From positions 1-47,089 of the forward strand of contig JADLER010000214.1 in the NCBI GenBank assembly GCA_020846025.1: a DNA stretch of 47,089 bases. The letters are read 5' to 3'. The translations under genes and the position numbers were made by a program. The notes below the pieces were generated by a model, which saw only the letters and a program-made list of their open reading frames with translations, did not search any database and was not told the origin of the DNA. This DNA comes from Bacteroidia bacterium (GTDB taxonomy: Bacteria; Bacteroidota; Bacteroidia; B-17B0; Aurantibacillaceae). Positions 4,847-43,839 of the stretch are shown piece by piece (the first letter of the stretch is position 1; each line of letters starts with the position of its first letter).

Positions 4847-4870
4847 ATAAAAGTACTTTAATACTTTTAT
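4847..4870. promoter_or_regulatory. Perfect inverted repeat, candidate operator of the NO/Fe-S stress operon
   Basis: Arms ATAAAAGTA (4847-4855) and TACTTTTAT (4862-4870) are exact reverse complements separated by six bases (CTTTAA). The dyad ends 4 bp before a TATATTTG -7 box and covers the position where a -33 element would sit, so a bound repressor would block the promoter. The dyad spacing is reminiscent of Rrf2/NsrR or CRP/FNR-type sites. An Rrf2 regulator is encoded in the same operon, but the link is an inference. Confidence 0.6.
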
Positions 4871-4874
4871 TTAG

Positions 4875-4882
4875 TATATTTG
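4875..4882 (+). promoter_or_regulatory. -7 promoter box (TATATTTG) for the ric/DUF2249 operon
   Basis: Exact match to the Bacteroidota sigma-A -7 consensus TAnnTTTG, 38 bp before the ATG at 4920. No TTTG is found 19-20 bp upstream, where the inverted repeat lies instead, consistent with regulated rather than constitutive transcription. Confidence 0.6.
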
Positions 4883-4919
4883 TGAAACAATAGTAGTTAA
4901 ACATTAAAAAATACATATC

Positions 4920-6365
4920 ATGGAAACAGCAAACGAAATTATCATCAACGTACAAGAACTAGAACCAAGATTAAGACATCAAACTATCTTTGATACTTTT
5001 AATTCATTAATGGAAGGAGAAAGTTTTATTATCCACAATAACCATGATCCAATGCCTGTATATTACCAACTTACAGAAATGCGTGGAAATATTTTTACAT
5101 GGGATTATTTACAGAAAGGTCCAGAATGGTGGGATATTAGAGTTCGCAGAGATGTGCCAATTATCCCAACAGAAGATAAAGATTTTATATTAAATATTCC
5201 CGTAATAGAACCTCAACAAAAACATGCTACAATTTTCCATGTATTTAAAAATACATTACCAGGTAATTCATTTATTATTCACAATAATCATGATCCAAAG
5301 CCTGTATATTTTCAATTACAAAATATGTTTGGCGATACTTTTACCTGGGAATACTTACAGCAAGGGCCACAATGGTGGGATATTAAAGTCGGTATAAAAG
5401 AAACAAAAAAATCAGAGTATCCAAATGACTTAGTTATTAATGTACCTTCATTAGAACCAAAGTTAAAACATCCAACAATTTTTAAAACTTTTGACTCTCT
5501 AAATGCTGGGGATAGTTTCATTATACATAACGATCATGATCCAAAACCAGTTTATTATCAATTATTAAGTGAGAAAGGTGATGTATTTACTTGGGAATAT
5601 TTACAAGAAGGCCCTCAATGGTGGGATATTCGAGTTACAAGAAAAGGGATGGAAAGTAGCGAAACCATAGGCGAAATTGTGGCAAAAGATTTACGAAAAG
5701 CTGAGGTATTTAAAAAATATGGTATAGATTTTTGCTGTGGCGGTAAAAAAACAGTGAGACAGAAATGTTCAGAAAAAGGAATTGATCCTACACAAATTGA
5801 AAAAGAATTGAAACAACCAATACATAATGCAACTCAACAAAGTAATTTAAACTACGACGAGTGGAGTCTTGATTTCCTAGCCGATTATATTGTCAATACT
5901 CATCACAACTACGTTAAAAAATACTTACCTGATATTACAACTTACGCTAATAAGGTAGCAAAAGTACACGGAAATCATCATCCAGAGTTGTCAGAAATTA
6001 AAGAATTAGTTGAACAAATAAATCATGAGTTAACAATTCACATGAAAGAAGAGGAAACAAAACTCTTTCCACTCATTAAGCAATTAGTAAATACTAAAAA
6101 TAATCCTTCAAAAACAGAAGTAGAGGCTTTTAAAAACTTTAATGCGCTTATTAATGAGACAGAAGAAGAACATGATAGTATAGGAAGATTACTAGAAAAA
6201 ATTAGAAGGTTAAATAATAACTATGCCATTCCAGAGGACGCATGTACAAGCTATAAACTATTATATAAGATGTTAGAGGAATTTGAAAATGATTTGTTTA
6301 CACATATTCATTTAGAAAACAATATTCTGTTTACAAAAGCAAGTAGCCTGTGTAAGTTATTATAG
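4920..6365 (+). CDS. ric: Triple DUF2249 - Ric/ScdA/YtfE di-iron repair protein fusion
   Basis: 481 aa, about twice the ~220-240 aa usual for Ric. Three DUF2249 repeats occupy residues ~6-77, 88-157 and 170-241. They have an exact 82-residue period, with the H-D of the (N/D)-H-D-P-x-P motif at 42/43, 124/125 and 206/207, and each ends in a W-(D/E)-Y-L...GPxWWDI block. A DUF542/ScdA N-terminal domain follows (about 245-300) with the diagnostic FCCGG (Cys272-Cys273). A hemerythrin-like four-helix domain (about 315-480) contains likely di-iron ligands in NTHHN, GNHH, INHE, EEEHD and HIHLEN. Family knowledge: Ric/YtfE repairs Fe-S clusters damaged by nitric oxide or oxidants; DUF2249 has no settled biochemical function but is recurrently linked with NO and denitrification genes. 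It is the first gene of the operon and has its own promoter and dyad. Confidence 0.93.
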   Translation: METANEIIINVQELEPRLRHQTIFDTFNSLMEGESFIIHNNHDPMPVYYQLTEMRGNIFTWDYLQKGPEWWDIRVRRDVPIIPTEDKDFILNIPVIEPQQKHATIFHVFKNTLPGNSFIIHNNHDPKPVYFQLQNMFGDTFTWEYLQQGPQWWDIKVGIKETKKSEYPNDLVINVPSLEPKLKHPTIFKTFDSLNAGDSFIIHNDHDPKPVYYQLLSEKGDVFTWEYLQEGPQWWDIRVTRKGMESSETIGEIVAKDLRKAEVFKKYGIDFCCGGKKTVRQKCSEKGIDPTQIEKELKQPIHNATQQSNLNYDEWSLDFLADYIVNTHHNYVKKYLPDITTYANKVAKVHGNHHPELSEIKELVEQINHELTIHMKEEETKLFPLIKQLVNTKNNPSKTEVEAFKNFNALINETEEEHDSIGRLLEKIRRLNNNYAIPEDACTSYKLLYKMLEEFENDLFTHIHLENNILFTKASSLCKLL

Positions 6366-6369
6366 TAAC

Positions 6370-6390
6370 CTTGAGTAATATACACTCAAG
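6370..6390 (+). other. Intercistronic hairpin between ric and the DUF1858 gene
   Basis: CTTGAGT (6370-6376) and ACTCAAG (6384-6390) form a perfect 7-bp stem with a 7-nt loop, 5 nt after the ric stop. There is no T-run, so it is not a standard terminator. It may stabilise or limit transcription of the distal operon, or be a second operator-like dyad. Function is inferred only. Confidence 0.4.
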
Positions 6391-6425
6391 TGAATGAAGT
6401 TATTCAAATAATAAATTAAAACAAA

Positions 6426-7256
6426 ATGTTTATTAACGAACAAACAAAAATAGCGGCACTTCTAAAACATCATCCAGATGCTTTAGAAACTATTATAAGT
6501 TTAAGTCCTGATTTTAAGAAATTAAGAAATCCAATATTAAGAAAATTAATGGCTGGAAGAGCAAGTATTGCTATGGCTTCAAAAATAGGAGGCTGCACAC
6601 CCGAAGATTTTTTTAAAGCTTTAGCACCATTAGGTTTTAAAGTAGATAGTTCGAAACCAAAAGAAAAAGAAAAAATTCAAAACACAACAATGCCTGTTTA
6701 TTTACAATCGGTGAGTCCTGATAAGATAGTAAACTTTGATGTAAGAGCCATGTTAGCAGAAGGTAACGATCCATTAAAAGTCATTCAACAAAAAGTAAAG
6801 GCTTTAAACCAAGGCGAGGTTCTTTTAATCATCAATAATTTTGAACCAGTACCACTTATTAAATTATTAGAAAAACAAGGTTTTGAAGCTTATGTTGAGT
6901 ATGAAAATGCTGATACTATAAAAACTTATTTCTTTAAATCATCAATTAATAATATACAAGTTAATACATCTGACATAGAAGCTGAAGTTAAAACATCGGG
7001 AGACTGGGAGGAGATTTTAAAACATTTCGAAAATCAACTACTTGAAATAGATGTACGCCAATTAGAGATGCCAATGCCTATGATGACAATTTTAGAAACT
7101 TTAGAAACACTCCCCGATCAAAAAGCATTATATGTGCGTCACAAACGAATTCCAGTATTTTTACTAACTGAATTAAAAGAAAGAAATTTTGAATACCGAA
7201 TTAAAGAAATACAGGAAGGAGAAGTATATTTACTGATCTTTAAACAAACATCATAA
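6426..7256 (+). CDS. DUF1858 - double DUF2249 protein
   Basis: 276 aa, cytoplasmic (no signal or membrane segment). Residues 1-65 form a DUF1858 domain: FINEQTKIAALLKHHPDAL, then the SPDFKKLRNPILRKLM core and KIGGC with Cys57. Two DUF2249-like domains follow at about 101-170 (VNFDVRAM ... GEVLLIINNFEPVPL) and 205-273 (LEIDVRQLEMP ... ALYVRHKRIPV). In both, the His-Asp-Pro motif of the canonical repeats is lost (NFEPVP and HKRIPV), so these copies are divergent and may have lost or changed ligand binding. DUF1858 is often found with Ric/hybrid-cluster-type genes; no enzymatic role is established. It lies 60 bp after ric, across a hairpin, and 1 bp before the membrane-protein gene, so it is almost certainly co-transcribed. 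Confidence 0.87.
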   Translation: MFINEQTKIAALLKHHPDALETIISLSPDFKKLRNPILRKLMAGRASIAMASKIGGCTPEDFFKALAPLGFKVDSSKPKEKEKIQNTTMPVYLQSVSPDKIVNFDVRAMLAEGNDPLKVIQQKVKALNQGEVLLIINNFEPVPLIKLLEKQGFEAYVEYENADTIKTYFFKSSINNIQVNTSDIEAEVKTSGDWEEILKHFENQLLEIDVRQLEMPMPMMTILETLETLPDQKALYVRHKRIPVFLLTELKERNFEYRIKEIQEGEVYLLIFKQTS

Positions 7257-7257
7257 C

Positions 7258-8544
7258 ATGATAACACCACTGCCAAGTGGTTTACAAAAAACCACTAATT
7301 ATAAAGTTGTACTTCCATTTTACTTGTACGCATCGATATCTTTTATTGTTGCCACAGCTTTATTATTAGTACATACCAATCTTACGAAAGCTCATCATTT
7401 TAATCCTCACACATTAGCCATTACACACATCTTAGCGCGAGGCTGGGGAACTATGATTATTTTAGGCGCATCGCACCAATTATTACCTGTCTTAGTAGAT
7501 GGTAAATTAATTAGTGATGTATTAGCACATCTCACCTTTATTTTCACAGCTATTGGAATTCCAATTTTAGTATATGCTTTTTATATATTTCAAACGGGAT
7601 GGCTTATGCAAATAGGCGCTGTATGTATCAATGTTGGCATAGTATGTTATGTTTTAAATGTTTTTAGTAGTTCATTTAGCACATCTAAACGAAATGTACA
7701 TGCTTGGTTTATAATTACTGCCTCTATTTGGCTATTTAGTACCGTATTCTTAGGACTACTATTAGTATTTAACTTTACTTATATGTTATTACCTAAAGAT
7801 TCCTTGTCGTATTTGAGTATCCATGCCCATCTAGGAATTGTAGGTTGGTTTTTATTATTAGTTATTGGTGTCGGTTCTCGCTTAATTCCAATGTTTTTAA
7901 TCTCAAAATATACAAATGATAAAAACTTATGGGTTATATTTTGGTTAATAAACCTAGGCTTAATAAGTTTTTTACTAATTAAATTTTTCGGTCTGAATAA
8001 TCATATCTTTTATTTTTCTGTTGCAAGTATTTTAATTGCCGTCTGCCTATTTGGTATTCATTGCAAAAGAGCTTATACGGTAAGAATAAGAAGAAATGTA
8101 GATGAACAAATGAAAACCTCATTAATTTCAATAGCTCAAATGTTGTTGCCAATTATAGCACTAATTATTACGCTATTTTTTTTACCAACAAATAAATTTC
8201 CGAACATGATTTTGCTATATGGATTCTGTATATTCTTTGGTTGGCTTACAGCAATTATTTTAGGAATGACATTTAAAACACTTCCTTTTATTGTTTGGAA
8301 TAAGGTATATCATACCAAAGCACAGAATTCTAAAACACCTGCCCCAAAAGAGTTATTTAGTGAAACAATTTATCAATTTATGTTATATAGTTATTTAATA
8401 GGCTTTATTATCTTCATTATTGGAATTATTAGTTTAATAGACTTAATTCTAAAAATAGGAGCAATTGCCTTATTTACTTCAGCTATATTATATGTATATA
8501 ATACGAGTAAAGTAATTTTTCACAAACCACTAAAAACAATTTAA
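7258..8544 (+). CDS. Polytopic heme-copper oxidase subunit I-like / NnrS-like membrane protein
   Basis: 428 aa with roughly twelve hydrophobic segments and no signal peptide. Histidines cluster at membrane boundaries as in heme-binding proteins: H46, H47, H51 and H57 before the second helix, H73 in ILGASHQLLPVL, H148, and H189/H191 in IHAHLGIVGWF followed by GVGSRLIPMF. The HAHLGxxGW and S-H-Q-L-L-P patterns recall the single-subunit heme-copper oxidase/NO reductase-like and NnrS families. It is too short and lacks the clear HH pair needed to call a complete NorB or CcoN. It starts 1 bp after the DUF1858 gene and ends 1 bp before the DUF59 gene. A role in NO tolerance or heme-dependent electron transfer is inferred from the motifs and from Ric and DUF2249 in the operon. 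The exact family needs a profile search. Confidence 0.72.
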   Translation: MITPLPSGLQKTTNYKVVLPFYLYASISFIVATALLLVHTNLTKAHHFNPHTLAITHILARGWGTMIILGASHQLLPVLVDGKLISDVLAHLTFIFTAIGIPILVYAFYIFQTGWLMQIGAVCINVGIVCYVLNVFSSSFSTSKRNVHAWFIITASIWLFSTVFLGLLLVFNFTYMLLPKDSLSYLSIHAHLGIVGWFLLLVIGVGSRLIPMFLISKYTNDKNLWVIFWLINLGLISFLLIKFFGLNNHIFYFSVASILIAVCLFGIHCKRAYTVRIRRNVDEQMKTSLISIAQMLLPIIALIITLFFLPTNKFPNMILLYGFCIFFGWLTAIILGMTFKTLPFIVWNKVYHTKAQNSKTPAPKELFSETIYQFMLYSYLIGFIIFIIGIISLIDLILKIGAIALFTSAILYVYNTSKVIFHKPLKTI

Positions 8545-8545
8545 T

Positions 8546-8875
8546 ATGGTAAAGAATATTATCACAAACGATATAGCCAAGTGTAATCAAGCACTCATTG
8601 GGCTTTACAATGTTTATGATCCAGAAATTGGTTTAAACGTTATTGACCTTGGCTTGGTATATGAACTTAATTTTGACGATAATACTAAAACAGTAAATTG
8701 TGAGATGACACTTACAACACAGTTCTGCCCAATGGGTGAAGCTATTACTGGAGACACCACACAATCTTTAACAAGTTCATTCCCAAATTGGACAATCAAC
8801 GTAAATCTTACATTTGAACCGCCTTGGGATTACACCAAAATTTCACCAGAAGGTAACGAATTTTTAGGAAGATAA
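8546..8875 (+). CDS. DUF59 / MIP18-family Fe-S cluster assembly protein (SufT/PaaD-like)
   Basis: 109 aa, nearly all one DUF59 domain. The signatures are DPEIGLNVIDLGLVYEL (residues ~24-40), TLTTQFCPMGEAI with the conserved Cys near 60, and the terminal FEPPWDYTKISPEG. Family members (SufT, PaaD, CIAO2) help mature Fe-S proteins. In this operon it most plausibly supports cluster rebuilding alongside Ric repair, which is an inference. Gene spacing is 1 bp upstream and 3 bp downstream. The length is normal for stand-alone members and no residues appear to be missing. Confidence 0.9.
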   Translation: MVKNIITNDIAKCNQALIGLYNVYDPEIGLNVIDLGLVYELNFDDNTKTVNCEMTLTTQFCPMGEAITGDTTQSLTSSFPNWTINVNLTFEPPWDYTKISPEGNEFLGR

Positions 8876-8878
8876 TAT

Positions 8879-9310
8879 ATGATAAGTCATACATGTAAAA
8901 TAGCCATAAAATCGGTAGTCTATCTTTCTTGTAAAAGTAGTCAAGGAGAAAAAGCAGGAATTAAAGAAATTGCCGAACATATTAATGCCAGCGAACACAC
9001 TATTGGAAAGACCTTACAATCATTAGTGAAACAAAAAATAATTAATAGTTTAAAAGGGCCAACGGGTGGTTTTTATTTAACGAATCAACAACAAAACTTG
9101 CCTCTATTTAATATCGTAGAAACCATTGAAGGAAAAGGCACTTTCAAAGAATGTGGATTAGGATTACATAAATGTTCGGAATCTCGTCCCTGCCCTATTC
9201 ATAACGAATACAAGGTAGCAAGAGAGTTAATTGAAAAAATATTTAAAGAGAAAAAAGTAAAAGACCTTTGTGATACCGTAAACAATGGTTTAGCATTTTT
9301 AATAGATTGA
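8879..9310 (+). CDS. Rrf2-family transcriptional regulator (NsrR/IscR-like)
   Basis: 143 aa. The N-terminal winged helix-turn-helix is typical of Rrf2: ISHTCKIAIKSVVYLS, then IKEIAEHINASEHTIGKTLQSL, then the wing KGPTGGFYL. The cluster-binding loop has three cysteines, C92, C99 and C105 (FKECGLGLHKC, then SRPC). The spacing is C-x6-C-x5-C, one residue longer in the first interval than the C-x5-C-x5-C of IscR or Streptomyces NsrR. It is therefore likely to hold an Fe-S cluster and to sense NO, oxygen or cluster status. Its position inside the operon suggests autoregulation, and the dyad at 4847-4870 is the obvious candidate site (inference). Confidence 0.92.
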   Translation: MISHTCKIAIKSVVYLSCKSSQGEKAGIKEIAEHINASEHTIGKTLQSLVKQKIINSLKGPTGGFYLTNQQQNLPLFNIVETIEGKGTFKECGLGLHKCSESRPCPIHNEYKVARELIEKIFKEKKVKDLCDTVNNGLAFLID

Positions 9311-9330
9311 AAACAACAAATTATAAAACA

Positions 9331-10089
9331 ATGATTACTTTAGAAAAAAATCCACAAGGAGAACTCGATGTAAGAGTTTTAGTTCCAATTCAACGTCACG
9401 AATTATTAATTCGATTATTTAAAGAACTACCTGTATCAGAACATTTTATATTTATAAATGATCATGATCCTATACCTCTTTATTATGAATTCCGTTCCAT
9501 TTACGGCGATGTGGTTGGCTGGGAATATTTAAATAAAGGAGGCAGAGAATGGAAAGTAAAAGTAACTCGCACAGAGGAATCCAAGGAACGTCAATTTACA
9601 GATATTTCAACACTTTTAGATTTAAGAAAAATAGACAAAAAAGATTGGAAACAAGTAATATTTCATCGCTATGGCATGATGGAAGAAAATACTACCATGG
9701 AATTGATTGCTAAAGAAGACCCTAGCGAAATACATGGCATTTTCGTTAATAAATTTGAAGGGAAACATACTTGGATTTATAAAACTAAATCACCTGAAGA
9801 ATATGTTATTCATATCACTAAAAAGGATAATAGCGGTCTTGGAGATGATGGCTATTCTGTTGTAAATACATTTGACATTCGCCCTTTTCCTCCTACCGAA
9901 AGACATGAAATGTTTTATAAAGCATTTGCTGACATTAAGCCTGGCGAAGCGTTTGAATTTATAAACGACCATGATCCTAAGCCATTATATTATCAAATGG
10001 AAGCAGAAAGTAAAGAACCTTTTAAGTGGGAGTACATTGAAAAAGGTCCAGAAGATTGGAAGGTGAGAGTAATAAAAGTGAAAGAATAA
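9331..10089 (+). CDS. Triple DUF2249-repeat protein
   Basis: 252 aa from the ATG at 9331. A TTG at 9307 would overlap the Rrf2 gene and adds only eight uninformative residues, so ATG is preferred. Three DUF2249-type units are visible. Unit 1 (about 12-80) has INDHDPIPLYYE with H45-D46 and ends GWEYLNKGGREWKVKV. Unit 2 (about 91-165) is degenerate: it keeps the IHGIF and HTWIYK landmarks but has no H-D-P. Unit 3 (about 178-250) has INDHDPKPLYYQ with H214-D215 and ends WEYIEKGPEDWKVRV. There is no signal peptide or membrane segment. It is a paralogue of the N-terminal half of the ric fusion. Its function is unknown; membership of the operon points to the NO or Fe-S stress response. Confidence 0.87.
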   Translation: MITLEKNPQGELDVRVLVPIQRHELLIRLFKELPVSEHFIFINDHDPIPLYYEFRSIYGDVVGWEYLNKGGREWKVKVTRTEESKERQFTDISTLLDLRKIDKKDWKQVIFHRYGMMEENTTMELIAKEDPSEIHGIFVNKFEGKHTWIYKTKSPEEYVIHITKKDNSGLGDDGYSVVNTFDIRPFPPTERHEMFYKAFADIKPGEAFEFINDHDPKPLYYQMEAESKEPFKWEYIEKGPEDWKVRVIKVKE

Positions 10090-10103
10090 TTAAAATTTAA
10101 TTT

Positions 10104-10499
10104 ATGGAAGTAAAAAGCAACGAGGCAACACCTCAACGACCGCAAGGCGATCGTATTCTTAATTCATCTTTAGTTGAGATGGACTTAACTAAATTTATCG
10201 AACAAATAAAAAACGAGCCTAATTGGAAAAACAACACACATAATACTATTACAATTTTTAAATCTGAGTTGATGCGTGTTGTATTAATTGCTTTACAAAA
10301 AAATGCCTTATTAAAACCTCATGCAACTAATGCTACTATTAGTGTACAAGTTTTAGAAGGAAGAATTAAATTTATAACTGATGAAAAAACAGCTATCTTA
10401 AAAAAATCACAAATGATTGCACTACAACCTAATATAACACATAGTGTAGAAGCAAGTGAAGAAAGTGTATTTTTGTTAACGCTAGCCATAACACAATAA
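10104..10499 (+). CDS. Small cupin-like protein
   Basis: 131 aa, cytoplasmic. Residues ~50-130 give an alternating beta pattern of a single cupin barrel: LMRVVLIALQKNALLKPHA, then VQVLEGRIKFIT, then ALQPNITHSVEA. The usual metal-binding set is reduced: a His in KPHAT and one in NITHSV are present, but the classical HxH is not. It may bind a small ligand or metal weakly. It sits 14 bp after the DUF2249 gene and 5 bp before the last operon gene, so its expression is probably coupled. The substrate is unknown. Confidence 0.78.
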   Translation: MEVKSNEATPQRPQGDRILNSSLVEMDLTKFIEQIKNEPNWKNNTHNTITIFKSELMRVVLIALQKNALLKPHATNATISVQVLEGRIKFITDEKTAILKKSQMIALQPNITHSVEASEESVFLLTLAITQ

Positions 10500-10504
10500 A
10501 ATAC

Positions 10505-10747
10505 ATGAATAAAAAAATAAAACTCATTTGGGAATATAGAGGTGAAGATGGGCATCAAACTGCAGTTCACTTCGTGCATCATTTAGAGGAATATATTGAG
10601 GCGACTCAACTTAAAAACAACATCTTAGGTGTTGAGAAAATTAATGATTTGTATTCTATTGCCTATATGATTATAGAGCAAGACGAACTTAACAAAGTAC
10701 GTGATGCTTTAAAACCAACACGTGCCGAATGGTACGAGGGTAAGTAA
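10505..10747 (+). CDS. Conserved-looking small protein, last gene of the stress operon
   Basis: 80 aa, no membrane segment, no recognised family. It starts KKIKLIWEYRGEDGHQTAVHFVHHLEEYI, rich in acidic residues and histidine (HFVHHLEE), and ends KPTRAEWYEGK. The composition suggests a compact alpha/beta fold. It starts 5 bp after the cupin stop and shares its direction, which supports it as a real gene. There is no good terminator in the 46 bp that separate it from the convergent gene. No function can be assigned. Confidence 0.65.
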   Translation: MNKKIKLIWEYRGEDGHQTAVHFVHHLEEYIEATQLKNNILGVEKINDLYSIAYMIIEQDELNKVRDALKPTRAEWYEGK

Positions 10748-10793: not shown

Positions 10794-12059
10794 TTATTTT
10801 GACAAGGCCAAAATTTGTTTGCCATGTTCTTTAGTTTTCACATCTTGAATAATATGTGATATAACTCCTTTTTCGTTTATAACAAACGTAGTGCGAATAA
10901 CACCATCAAACACACGCCCCATAAATTGTTTTTTACCAAACACATCATAATCTTGTATTATTTTTTTATCAGTATCAGCTAATAAAGAAAAAGGTAATTG
11001 AAACTTATCTGAAAATTTTTGATGTGATTTTTCGTCATCAGCACTTACCCCTACTACTACAAAATTTTTCTTATTTAAAAATTGATACTCGTCTCTTAGA
11101 CTACAGGCTTCGAGTGTGCAACCAGGTGTATTATCCTTAGGGTAAAAATATAAAACAACTTGTTTACCCTTTAAACCAGCTAAAGAAACTACTTCCCCAA
11201 ATTGATCTTTTGCTTTAAATGCAGGGGCTTTATCTCCTACTTGTAACGATGTTGCATGAGGTTTAAACTTTGCTTTTTGGGGAGTAGCTGTTATTTTTTT
11301 GATAGCAGTAGCTGACACAACTGGTTTTGCTTTTTTCATTGTAGTTGTTTTGTTCTCCACCACCTTAGTAGTTGTTTTCTTAGTAACCGTTACTTTCTTC
11401 ATCGTTAAATTGATTTTAGATTTTAAGCCATTTTTTTGAAAATACTGACACCATTTGGTTAAAGGACAAACTTCGCACTTTGGAGTGCGAGCCAAGCAAA
11501 TGTAACGTCCATGTAAAATTAACCAATGGTGTGCCGTAGCAATGTATTGCTCGGGTATGTATTTCACTAATTGTGTTTCGCTTTGCAGTGGTGTTTTAGC
11601 CTTGGTTAATCCTATTCGGTTCGATACCCTAAAAACATGTGTATCTACAGCCATAGTCGGTTTATCATATATTACCGAAGCTACTACATTAGCTGTTTTT
11701 CTACCCACTCCAGGTAATTTCACTAAGTCTTCGCGCTCGCTAGGCACTATTCCATTAAAATCTTTTAAAAGCATATTGGCCATATTTACTAAATGTTTGG
11801 CTTTGTTATTGGGATAACTTACGCTTCTAATATATTGGAAAATCGTTTCAGAACTTGCTGAGGCAAGGGCTTCAACAGTTGGATAATCTCGAAATAATTT
11901 TGGTGTTACCTGATTAATACGTTTATCAGTACATTGAGCTGATAAAATTACTGCTACAATTAATTCGTACGGATTGGTATAATGAAGCTCGGTTTCAGCA
12001 ACAGGCACATGGGTTTTAAAATAATCAATTACACCATTATATCGTTCCTTTAAGGTCAT
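10794..12059 (-). CDS. nth: Endonuclease III - thiol peroxiredoxin (BCP) fusion
   Basis: 421 aa in one uninterrupted frame. Residues 1-~212 are endonuclease III: the helix-hairpin-helix LPGVGRKTANVV with catalytic Lys121, catalytic Asp139 in VDTHVFRVSNR, and the 4Fe-4S cysteines 188, 195, 198 and 204 (C-x6-C-x2-C-x5-C). Residues ~213-270 form a Lys/Thr/Ala-rich linker. Residues ~271-421 are a bacterioferritin-comigratory-type peroxiredoxin with peroxidatic Cys314 (TPGCT) and Cys319 in EAC. Nth excises oxidised pyrimidines; BCP reduces peroxides with thioredoxin. An ATG at codon 220 (11402) lies where a separate bcp could start, so a second, shorter product is possible. The gene is 3 bp downstream of the methyltransferase and convergent with the stress operon. 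Confidence 0.92.
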   Translation of the reverse strand: MTLKERYNGVIDYFKTHVPVAETELHYTNPYELIVAVILSAQCTDKRINQVTPKLFRDYPTVEALASASSETIFQYIRSVSYPNNKAKHLVNMANMLLKDFNGIVPSEREDLVKLPGVGRKTANVVASVIYDKPTMAVDTHVFRVSNRIGLTKAKTPLQSETQLVKYIPEQYIATAHHWLILHGRYICLARTPKCEVCPLTKWCQYFQKNGLKSKINLTMKKVTVTKKTTTKVVENKTTTMKKAKPVVSATAIKKITATPQKAKFKPHATSLQVGDKAPAFKAKDQFGEVVSLAGLKGKQVVLYFYPKDNTPGCTLEACSLRDEYQFLNKKNFVVVGVSADDEKSHQKFSDKFQLPFSLLADTDKKIIQDYDVFGKKQFMGRVFDGVIRTTFVINEKGVISHIIQDVKTKEHGKQILALSK

Positions 12060-43765: not shown

Positions 43766-43839
43766 GGTCCCGTAGCTCAGCTGGATAGAGCAACTGCCTT
43801 CTAAGCAGTAGGTCATTGGTTCGAATCCAATCGGGATCA
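43766..43839 (+). tRNA. tRNA-Arg (anticodon UCU)
   Basis: A cloverleaf can be drawn: acceptor GGTCCCG/CGGGATC (one G-U pair), D arm GCTCAGCTGGATAGAGC, anticodon stem ACTGC/GCAGT with loop CTTCTAA giving anticodon TCT, T arm ATTGG-TTCGAAT-CCAAT, and discriminator A at 43839. CCA is not encoded. It reads AGA codons, common in this AT-rich genome. Confidence 0.97.

Follow-up and report, generated by a model that had tools for sequence, protein, structure and literature searches.

Among the closest described relatives of the system considered here are proteins with the DUF2249 domain (PF10006), which we take to be the same as COG4309. A relevance of COG4309 to nitric oxide (NO) reductase was proposed in 2005 (PMC1274295), all four DUF2249 genes of Haloferax mediterranei are upregulated under denitrification, with log2 fold changes of 3.24 to 8.65 (PMC11218638), and Thermus cells without DrpA (periplasmic) and DrpB (cytoplasmic and membrane-associated) make NarG, which is poorly active under anoxia with nitrate (PMC6282519). 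The stretch of DNA analyzed here, called the window, comprises positions 1 to 47,089 of contig JADLER010000214.1 of a Bacteroidia bacterium (Aurantibacillaceae; assembly GCA_020846025.1) and contains an operon of eight genes (A to H), three of which encode DUF2249 proteins. The conserved unit is a five-gene core, consisting of a DUF2249-Ric protein (A), a DrpB homologue (B), a membrane protein (C), a DUF59 protein (D), and an Rrf2 regulator (E). The operon probably protects iron enzymes from NO, and the chances are about even that it is an accessory module for growth on nitrogen oxides (N-oxides), which maintains or repairs Fe and Fe-S centres during N-oxide respiration. A description of C or of the four-gene module (DUF2249, DrpB, C, and DUF59) was not found in the literature searched, mostly without subscription journals and preprints, and no literature joining DUF59, nitric oxide, and denitrification was found.

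The operon and its conserved core

As a first-pass annotation of the window had described, the eight genes are co-directional (+ strand, 4920-10747) and separated by gaps of 1-60 bp (60, 1, 1, 3, 20, 14, and 5 bp), which the coordinates of the open reading frames bear out; the eight DUF2249 copies, distributed as 3+2+3, all scored above the curated PF10006 cut-off. The features are the following:

4848-4869, no strand assigned: putative operator palindrome, TAAAAGTA-N6-TACTTTTA, 51 bp 5' of the ATG of A
4920-6365, + strand: A, 481 aa, three DUF2249 domains fused to a Ric di-iron protein (ScdA_N and hemerythrin)
4944-5150, 5202-5390, and 5436-5642, + strand: DUF2249 domains of A (PF10006 profile)
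6426-7256, + strand: B, 276 aa, DrpB homologue with DUF1858 and two degenerate DUF2249 domains
6735-6923 and 7044-7238, + strand: DUF2249 domains of B (PF10006 profile)
7258-8544, + strand: C, 428 aa, membrane protein of 12 helices with a predicted heme-copper-oxidase subunit I fold (model, Foldseek)
8546-8875, + strand: D, 109 aa, DUF59 / FeS_assembly_P
8879-9310, + strand: E, 143 aa, Rrf2 regulator
9331-10089, + strand: F, 252 aa, three DUF2249 domains; alternative TTG start at 9307 in the list of open reading frames
9361-9570, 9616-9822 (degenerate), and 9868-10074, + strand: DUF2249 domains of F (PF10006 profile)
10104-10499, + strand: G, 131 aa, cupin-like, optional member, with cupin matches only, beneath the gathering scores
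10505-10747, + strand: H, 80 aa, optional member without a known family, with no NCBIfam match and a single sub-threshold Pfam match

The linkage across Bacteroidota that the first-pass annotation had anticipated was found in a gene-order survey, in which the core A-E recurs. Among 100 genomes (that of the window included), full-length C was present in 17, and one more (G012) contained a C cut by a contig end; the remaining matches of the C search were stretches of about 75-105 residues in frames of 579-773 aa, read as CcoNO, and one weak match with stops. In the neighbourhoods of the 16 relatives (L039-L054), A, B, and C were present in 16/16 and D in 15/16. A contig scan yielded at least 550 confirmed relatives, the best 80 of which were kept as named loci; these are Bacteroidota by name, in part as judged from the genus (one is named only 'bacterium'), with Segetibacter koreensis and Niastella vici among them, and at least three probably represent the same genomes as G014, G087, and G075. 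In these best 80 loci, the end of B lay within 100 bp of C in 78/80, D began no more than about 100 bp past C in 73/78 with room, E lay within 600 bp in 66/75 with room, and A was located up to 2.6 kb upstream in 62/68 with room. Matches to F, G, and H were found in 14, 16, and one (the sister genome), respectively, and the full order A-H only in the window and one sister genome (G014, the same as L039 and L107). F is a loose companion of the core. Its position varied further: it lay apart from the core in L103, L104, and L105, and in Gelidibacter (L147:7260-8111 and L151:7235-7987) a three-DUF2249 protein F is encoded divergently beside A, not downstream. Small proteins with a lipoprotein-like start and a conserved G-P/A-D/E-H-x-x-L-H-x-W-L stretch occur between A and B (e.g. 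L180:8711-9172 and L157:8663-9154) in about 16 of the 80 named loci by eye; the one that was scanned had no Pfam match.

Association with denitrification

At least one of the marker enzymes NosZ, NirK, cNorB, and qNor was found in 17 of the 18 genomes with C versus 16 of the 82 without (p 2.6e-9), and, with one genome per family, in 10/10 versus 9/29 (p 1.5e-4), p values that serve as guides only, since the sampled genomes are related. NosZ, a NirK or qNor above its cut-off, and strong cNorB matches (seven) were counted as markers, weaker qNor-like proteins being left out. After removal of 20 genomes of the window's own genus, the markers were present in 13/14 genomes with C versus 15/66 without; arranged by DUF2249, in 22/23 with versus 11/77 without. 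NosZ alone occurred in 13/18 genomes with C versus 14/82 without, and all five genomes with DUF2249 but without C bear NosZ. Neighbours confirmed by Pfam included NosZ in L041 and L050, and qNor in L047. Within up to 10 kb on each side of the best 80 loci, a NosZ, NorB-type, qNor, or NirK match was present in 13/80, several of them weak or partial: the 'NirK' proteins of L161 and L168, at 32-33% identity, may belong to the multicopper proteins of other kinds, the NorB match of L156 is weak (46.6 bits), and L154 and L164 contain qNor fragments at the locus edge only.

These data bear on the explanation that this is a general Fe-S stress operon, not specific to NO, which denitrifiers merely need more often. 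Rrf2, DUF59, and Ric proteins also occur in general Fe-S stress responses, one genome (G026) contains the core although, under the criteria applied, all four marker enzymes are lacking, and the relatedness of the sampled genomes makes the counts non-independent. The association nevertheless holds with one genome per family, and the module is physically linked to nar, nor, nir, or nos genes in Bacteroidota, Thermus, and Sinorhizobium; a general stress operon is considered improbable.

The first-pass annotation had described a system lacking a visible NO reductase, which is true of the window only, NO reductase genes being present elsewhere in the same genome. Contig C103 encodes, one after the other, a cytochrome with CxxCH, a protein of the oxidase family, an ATPase of AAA type, and a protein of 589 aa, the order annotated in Sinorhizobium as cytochrome c, NO reductase, AAA ATPase, and NorD; the oxidase-family protein bears HLWVE, HH, and HGH, which we take to be the NorB pattern. 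NCBIfam returned no Nor equivalog for these four proteins, so that their label norCBQD is our own assignment. In addition, NosZ matches were found on two contigs, one of them (C166) with 923 bits for Sec-dependent NosZ (cut-off 625), and NirK scored 348.8 bits (cut-off 296.3). The sister genome G014 also bears NosZ, NirK, and a norCBQD-like set. A qNor above cut-off was not retrieved from the genome of the window; its assembly is 92% complete with 6.4% contamination, which makes such absences soft. NirS was found in one of the 18 C-bearing genomes, not that of the window, and Hcp in 0/18. The full-genome search for norB, nosZ, and hcp thus returned norB-like and NosZ genes and no Hcp. Contig C183 of the same genome (L091:2120-3854) encodes a second, more divergent oxidase-family protein, with HH and without the HxxxE motif, beside a CxxCH cytochrome; this NorCB-like pair received no NCBIfam assignment above cut-off. 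Of the self-contained sensing and repair module that had been suggested, the link to N-oxides stands, as does an operon that comes with a regulator gene of Fe-S type and an operator of its own; a stand-alone system without NO reductase was rejected on account of the NirK, norCBQD-like operon, and NosZ of the same genome.

Membrane protein C, DUF2249 domains, and regulation

C of the window has no Pfam match of its own; among its 17 aligned homologues, COX1 (PF00115) was matched in 11 and NnrS (PF05940) in one, at E 0.4. A model made from the alignment of these 17 homologues consists of twelve long helices (mean pLDDT 86.1, pTM 0.86), and a Foldseek search with it gave CcoN of the cbb3 oxidase as top match (E 2.5e-7, TM-score 0.71 by query), with NorB among the matches. 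The name 'NnrS-like', given to C before, therefore yields to an oxidase fold: membership of NnrS was rejected, since window C has no PF05940 match, one NnrS sequence failed to align (hhalign, E 0.16), and Sinorhizobium has, next to its C homologue, an nnrS gene in its own right. Among the 14 His residues of window C, His57 and His189 alone are conserved as His throughout the 100 rows of an alignment that contains at least four duplicates and includes two near-identical Thermus rows, one Sinorhizobium row, and one Aliarcobacter row, two Bacteroidota loci with a short or split C having been dropped. In heme-copper oxidases, the classical set of six His provides the ligands of heme b, heme b3, and CuB. 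As no more than two His are invariant, C lacks the classical catalytic centre, and the missing catalytic ligands make it unlikely that C is an NO reductase. We infer that C may bind one bis-His heme (His57/His189).

A new NO-consuming membrane complex, in which Ric receives quinol electrons from C and reduces NO or nitrite at its di-iron site, would be in line with the oxidase fold of C, the di-iron protein in A, and the nitrite-reductase activity reported for YtfE and ScdA. The lack of the six-His heme-copper site in C, the presence of Nor genes in the genome of the window, and the absence of Ric from the Thermus and Sinorhizobium modules shown below argue against it, and such a complex is judged quite improbable.

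Profile comparisons by hhalign aligned the regions of transmembrane helices 2 and 6 (TM2 and TM6) of C both to the helix-X region of CcoN (5.7e-6 and 3.4e-4). When C was divided into three four-helix parts, the first resembled the second (E 1.9e-6) and the third (E 6.6e-9), with reversed controls at 0.22-0.5; parts 2 and 3 were not significantly alike (E 0.02), these E values all being from single-pair comparisons of membrane proteins. The comparison of the C profile with NorB and NorB2 of the same genome (E 0.005 and 0.011) lent no support. Tentatively, C may represent a non-catalytic branch of the heme-copper oxidases with at most one heme (TM2/TM6) and a partly readable three-fold repeat, which would form a platform with DUF2249 and DUF59 proteins; equally tentative is that this platform feeds electrons or an NO signal to cytoplasmic iron-centre repair in at least three phyla of denitrifiers. 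Should C bind heme and yet be unable to reduce NO, it would represent a respiratory oxidase repurposed for protection from NO.

The genome of the window contains nine DUF2249 copies (PF10006), eight of them within the operon (A 3, B 2, and F 3). The ninth lies on contig C50 (L055, 3239 bp), as the sole DUF2249 of another DUF2249-Ric gene, which neighbours the gene of a Thioredoxin_9 protein; this DUF2249-Ric gene could be a second copy or contamination. Among 66 A proteins of more than 300 aa (counting that of the window, and two from one locus), a single DUF2249 copy is present in 31, two in 10, three in 20, four in two, and five in three. As 31/66 have a single domain, many copies are not needed, whatever the scaffold or ligand-carrier role suggested before for multi-copy DUF2249 may be, and the multi-copy state is an optional, variable trait and not the essence of the module. 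In 180 DUF2249 domains scoring above 50 bits, from which degenerate copies (for example those of B and the middle one of F) were excluded, the first His was conserved in 100%, as were the H and P of an N-D-H-D-P loop (100% each), followed by its N (99%), second D (98%), and first D (81%); no column had Cys as majority residue. The model of F displays the order beta-alpha-beta-alpha-beta-beta three times over, Foldseek gave single-domain matches to TusA-like structures, and the TusA profile matched B at 6.6e-6, under its gathering score. Together, this topology, the weak structure matches, and the sub-threshold profile match suggest that the predicted fold of DUF2249 is TusA-like. Foldseek with the F model gave MurA as sole match at E <= 0.001 (TM-score 0.22), probably a repeat artefact, the TusA-like matches having E 0.02-0.11. 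Sequence searches against solved structures gave one match for F (E 0.015), judged to be chance, and 2fi0 for residues 6-73 of B, its DUF1858 part (5e-05), the others being weaker and at chance level.

As to regulation, Cys92, Cys99, and Cys105 of E are present in 76/76 aligned rows, a few of which are probably same-locus paralogues; similarly, Cys61 of D is present in 76/76 aligned rows. At least 14 of the 16 fixed operator positions were found upstream of A in 61 of 66 other loci (the sister genome left out), compared with 5/267 other upstream regions of the same loci and 3/1320 shuffles. The 20-bp operator core has one exact site in the genome of the window, and the backwards control none there. 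Exact core sites were present in 8/18 genomes, at the operon in five (G000, G014, G040, G062, and G087) and away from it in G065, G066 (two sites), and G097; the backwards control matched in 3/18 (G007, G063, and G066), and single sites can, as these off-operon and control matches indicate, arise by chance. In the loci of the 16 relatives, the operator was found in 6/7 where an Rrf2 gene lies no more than 3 kb from C and in 0/9 without (L054, with its Rrf2 gene just past the limit, being scored as without), and among the 62 named loci with room in 54/56 with an Rrf2 gene versus 3/6 without (p 0.005). In the loci L119 and L140, which lack A, the operator site precedes B. On the strength of sequence, the module is best read as self-regulated through its Rrf2 gene and its own operator. 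An operator site was also seen in G057 (DUF2249, no full-length C), 32 bp before an Rrf2 gene.

Scans of the window for promoters (35 promoter-like matches versus 35.4 expected) and terminators (one terminator-like match versus 2.5 expected) were uninformative, and Rfam retrieved nothing in the window but a tRNA at 43766. In the gene after the operon (10794-12059, - strand), a single frame of 421 aa combines a part resembling endonuclease III with a peroxiredoxin part (AhpC-TSA); at this place the sister locus L039 has shorter, separate frames.

Homologous modules and comparison with known systems

Modules homologous to the inner part of the core lie beside nar in Thermus and between nor and nirK in Sinorhizobium. 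Thermus plasmids carry, in this order and with overlaps or gaps of at most 50 bp, nar genes and the genes of a DUF2249 protein (DrpA), DrpB, a protein of 144 aa, another with a protoglobin domain, a homologue of C, and DUF59; in the main texts, the word 'protoglobin' is absent from PMC6282519, and 'globin' and 'heme-copper' from PMC7694296. The 144-aa protein, encoded between drpB and the protoglobin gene on a Thermus thermophilus plasmid (L194:15795-16229), can be aligned over 87 columns with the second part of C (E 1.7e-7) and matches COX1 below threshold at profile positions 344-405. It is possibly a free fragment of the oxidase repeat, and it may, as tentatively as the platform proposed above, be a relic or building block of the repeat of C. 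Its description as a four-helix unit was dropped, as a crude hydropathy plot displays only two clear transmembrane-like windows and the match covers 87 columns. In Sinorhizobium meliloti (ml56, pSymA), the order is norD, intron, hemN, pirin, DUF2249, C, a DUF2249 protein, DUF59, nnrS, and nirK; the second DUF2249 protein resembles, by eye, B minus DUF1858, and in strain LMB1 the DUF59 frame is apparently shortened. In addition, Aliarcobacter encodes a DUF2249-like protein (under cut-off), C, and DUF59, and in Haloarcula an F-like DUF2249 protein adjoins ric. The conserved partner set (DUF2249, DrpB, C, and DUF59, in Bacteroidota also the regulator and operator) provides a defined complex for work on DUF2249.

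The biochemistry of the accessory module, which we infer from its proteins, would be as follows. Firstly, NO or Fe-S loss would damage the cluster of the Rrf2 regulator, whereby the operon is derepressed. Secondly, C would hold no more than a single low-spin heme, placed between His57 and His189, and would serve as an anchor in the membrane, as a supplier of electrons, or as a heme sensor, but would not be an NO reductase. Thirdly, the TusA-like DUF2249 domains may be adaptors bringing Ric and DrpB to C. Lastly, Ric and DUF59 would repair or mature the iron and Fe-S centres that NO damages during denitrification. The low activity of the NarG that Thermus produces when DrpA and DrpB are missing favours such maturation or maintenance. 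The same Thermus mutants lose nitrate control of nar and dnr (PMC6282519), which favours signalling, as proposed there for DrpA and DrpB: DUF2249/DrpB and C would act at the membrane as sensors of nitrate, nitrite, or NO and would govern reductase transcription, with Ric and DUF59 as passengers. The periplasmic location of DrpA, the cytoplasmic and membrane-associated one of DrpB, and the homology of B to DrpB are in line with this, and a heme in C could serve as ligand sensor. However, in the drp mutants NarG that has been synthesized is also affected in its activity; DUF59 is retained in 73/78 loci with room as well as in Thermus and Sinorhizobium, which fits maturation better, and DUF2249 is fused to Ric in the window. 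Signalling is regarded as rather unlikely, though more probable than the other alternatives. Apart from the lost nitrate control, several observations weigh against maintenance and repair by the accessory module: G026 lacks the marker enzymes; the TusA-like Foldseek matches reach E 0.02-0.11 only; the operator is absent from the nine relatives' loci scored without an Rrf2 gene, so that this regulation is not universal; and neither the Thermus nor the Sinorhizobium module shown contains Ric, while A is missing upstream in 6/68 Bacteroidota loci with room, so that repair by Ric is not the whole function.

Compared with the known systems, A resembles Ric (YtfE/ScdA), as it exceeds the NCBIfam Ric equivalog cut-off (TIGR03652; 243.8 versus 204.7 bits) and retains the Cys-Cys motif of ScdA_N and the hemerythrin His/Glu positions, but A-type proteins add one to five N-terminal DUF2249 domains. 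TusA sulfurtransferases have a sulfur-carrying Cys. In the model of F, the DUF2249 domains have the beta-alpha-beta-alpha-beta-beta order of the TusA/TsuB sulfur carriers, but the 180 better-scoring domains have an invariant His instead of a conserved Cys; structure 8j4c, by its title YeeD (TsuB) with the membrane protein YeeE (TsuA), is a possible precedent for docking. C shares its 12-helix fold with heme-copper oxidase subunit I (CcoN and NorB), but has two invariant His in place of the six-His set. E belongs to the Rrf2 family, like the regulators of NsrR/IscR type, and its three invariant Cys resemble the cluster ligands of Streptomyces NsrR (Cys93/99/105, PMC9338935); in contrast, it scored 22.7 bits against the NsrR equivalog cut-off of 182, did not reach the other named Rrf2 equivalogs either, and is encoded inside the operon, with one exact operator site in its own genome. 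Finally, B has the architecture of DrpB of Thermus thermophilus, DUF1858 with two DUF2249 domains (PMC6282519), and is up to 33.8% identical over 98% to Thermus proteins; DrpA is a single DUF2249 domain of the same type as those in A and F, and both the drp genes and the window operon sit with N-oxide respiration genes. The Thermus papers present drpAB as an operon of two genes, whereas the Thermus records contain four further genes after drpB, and the window encodes no separate single-DUF2249 protein such as DrpA, the domain being tripled and fused to Ric and an Rrf2 gene being added.

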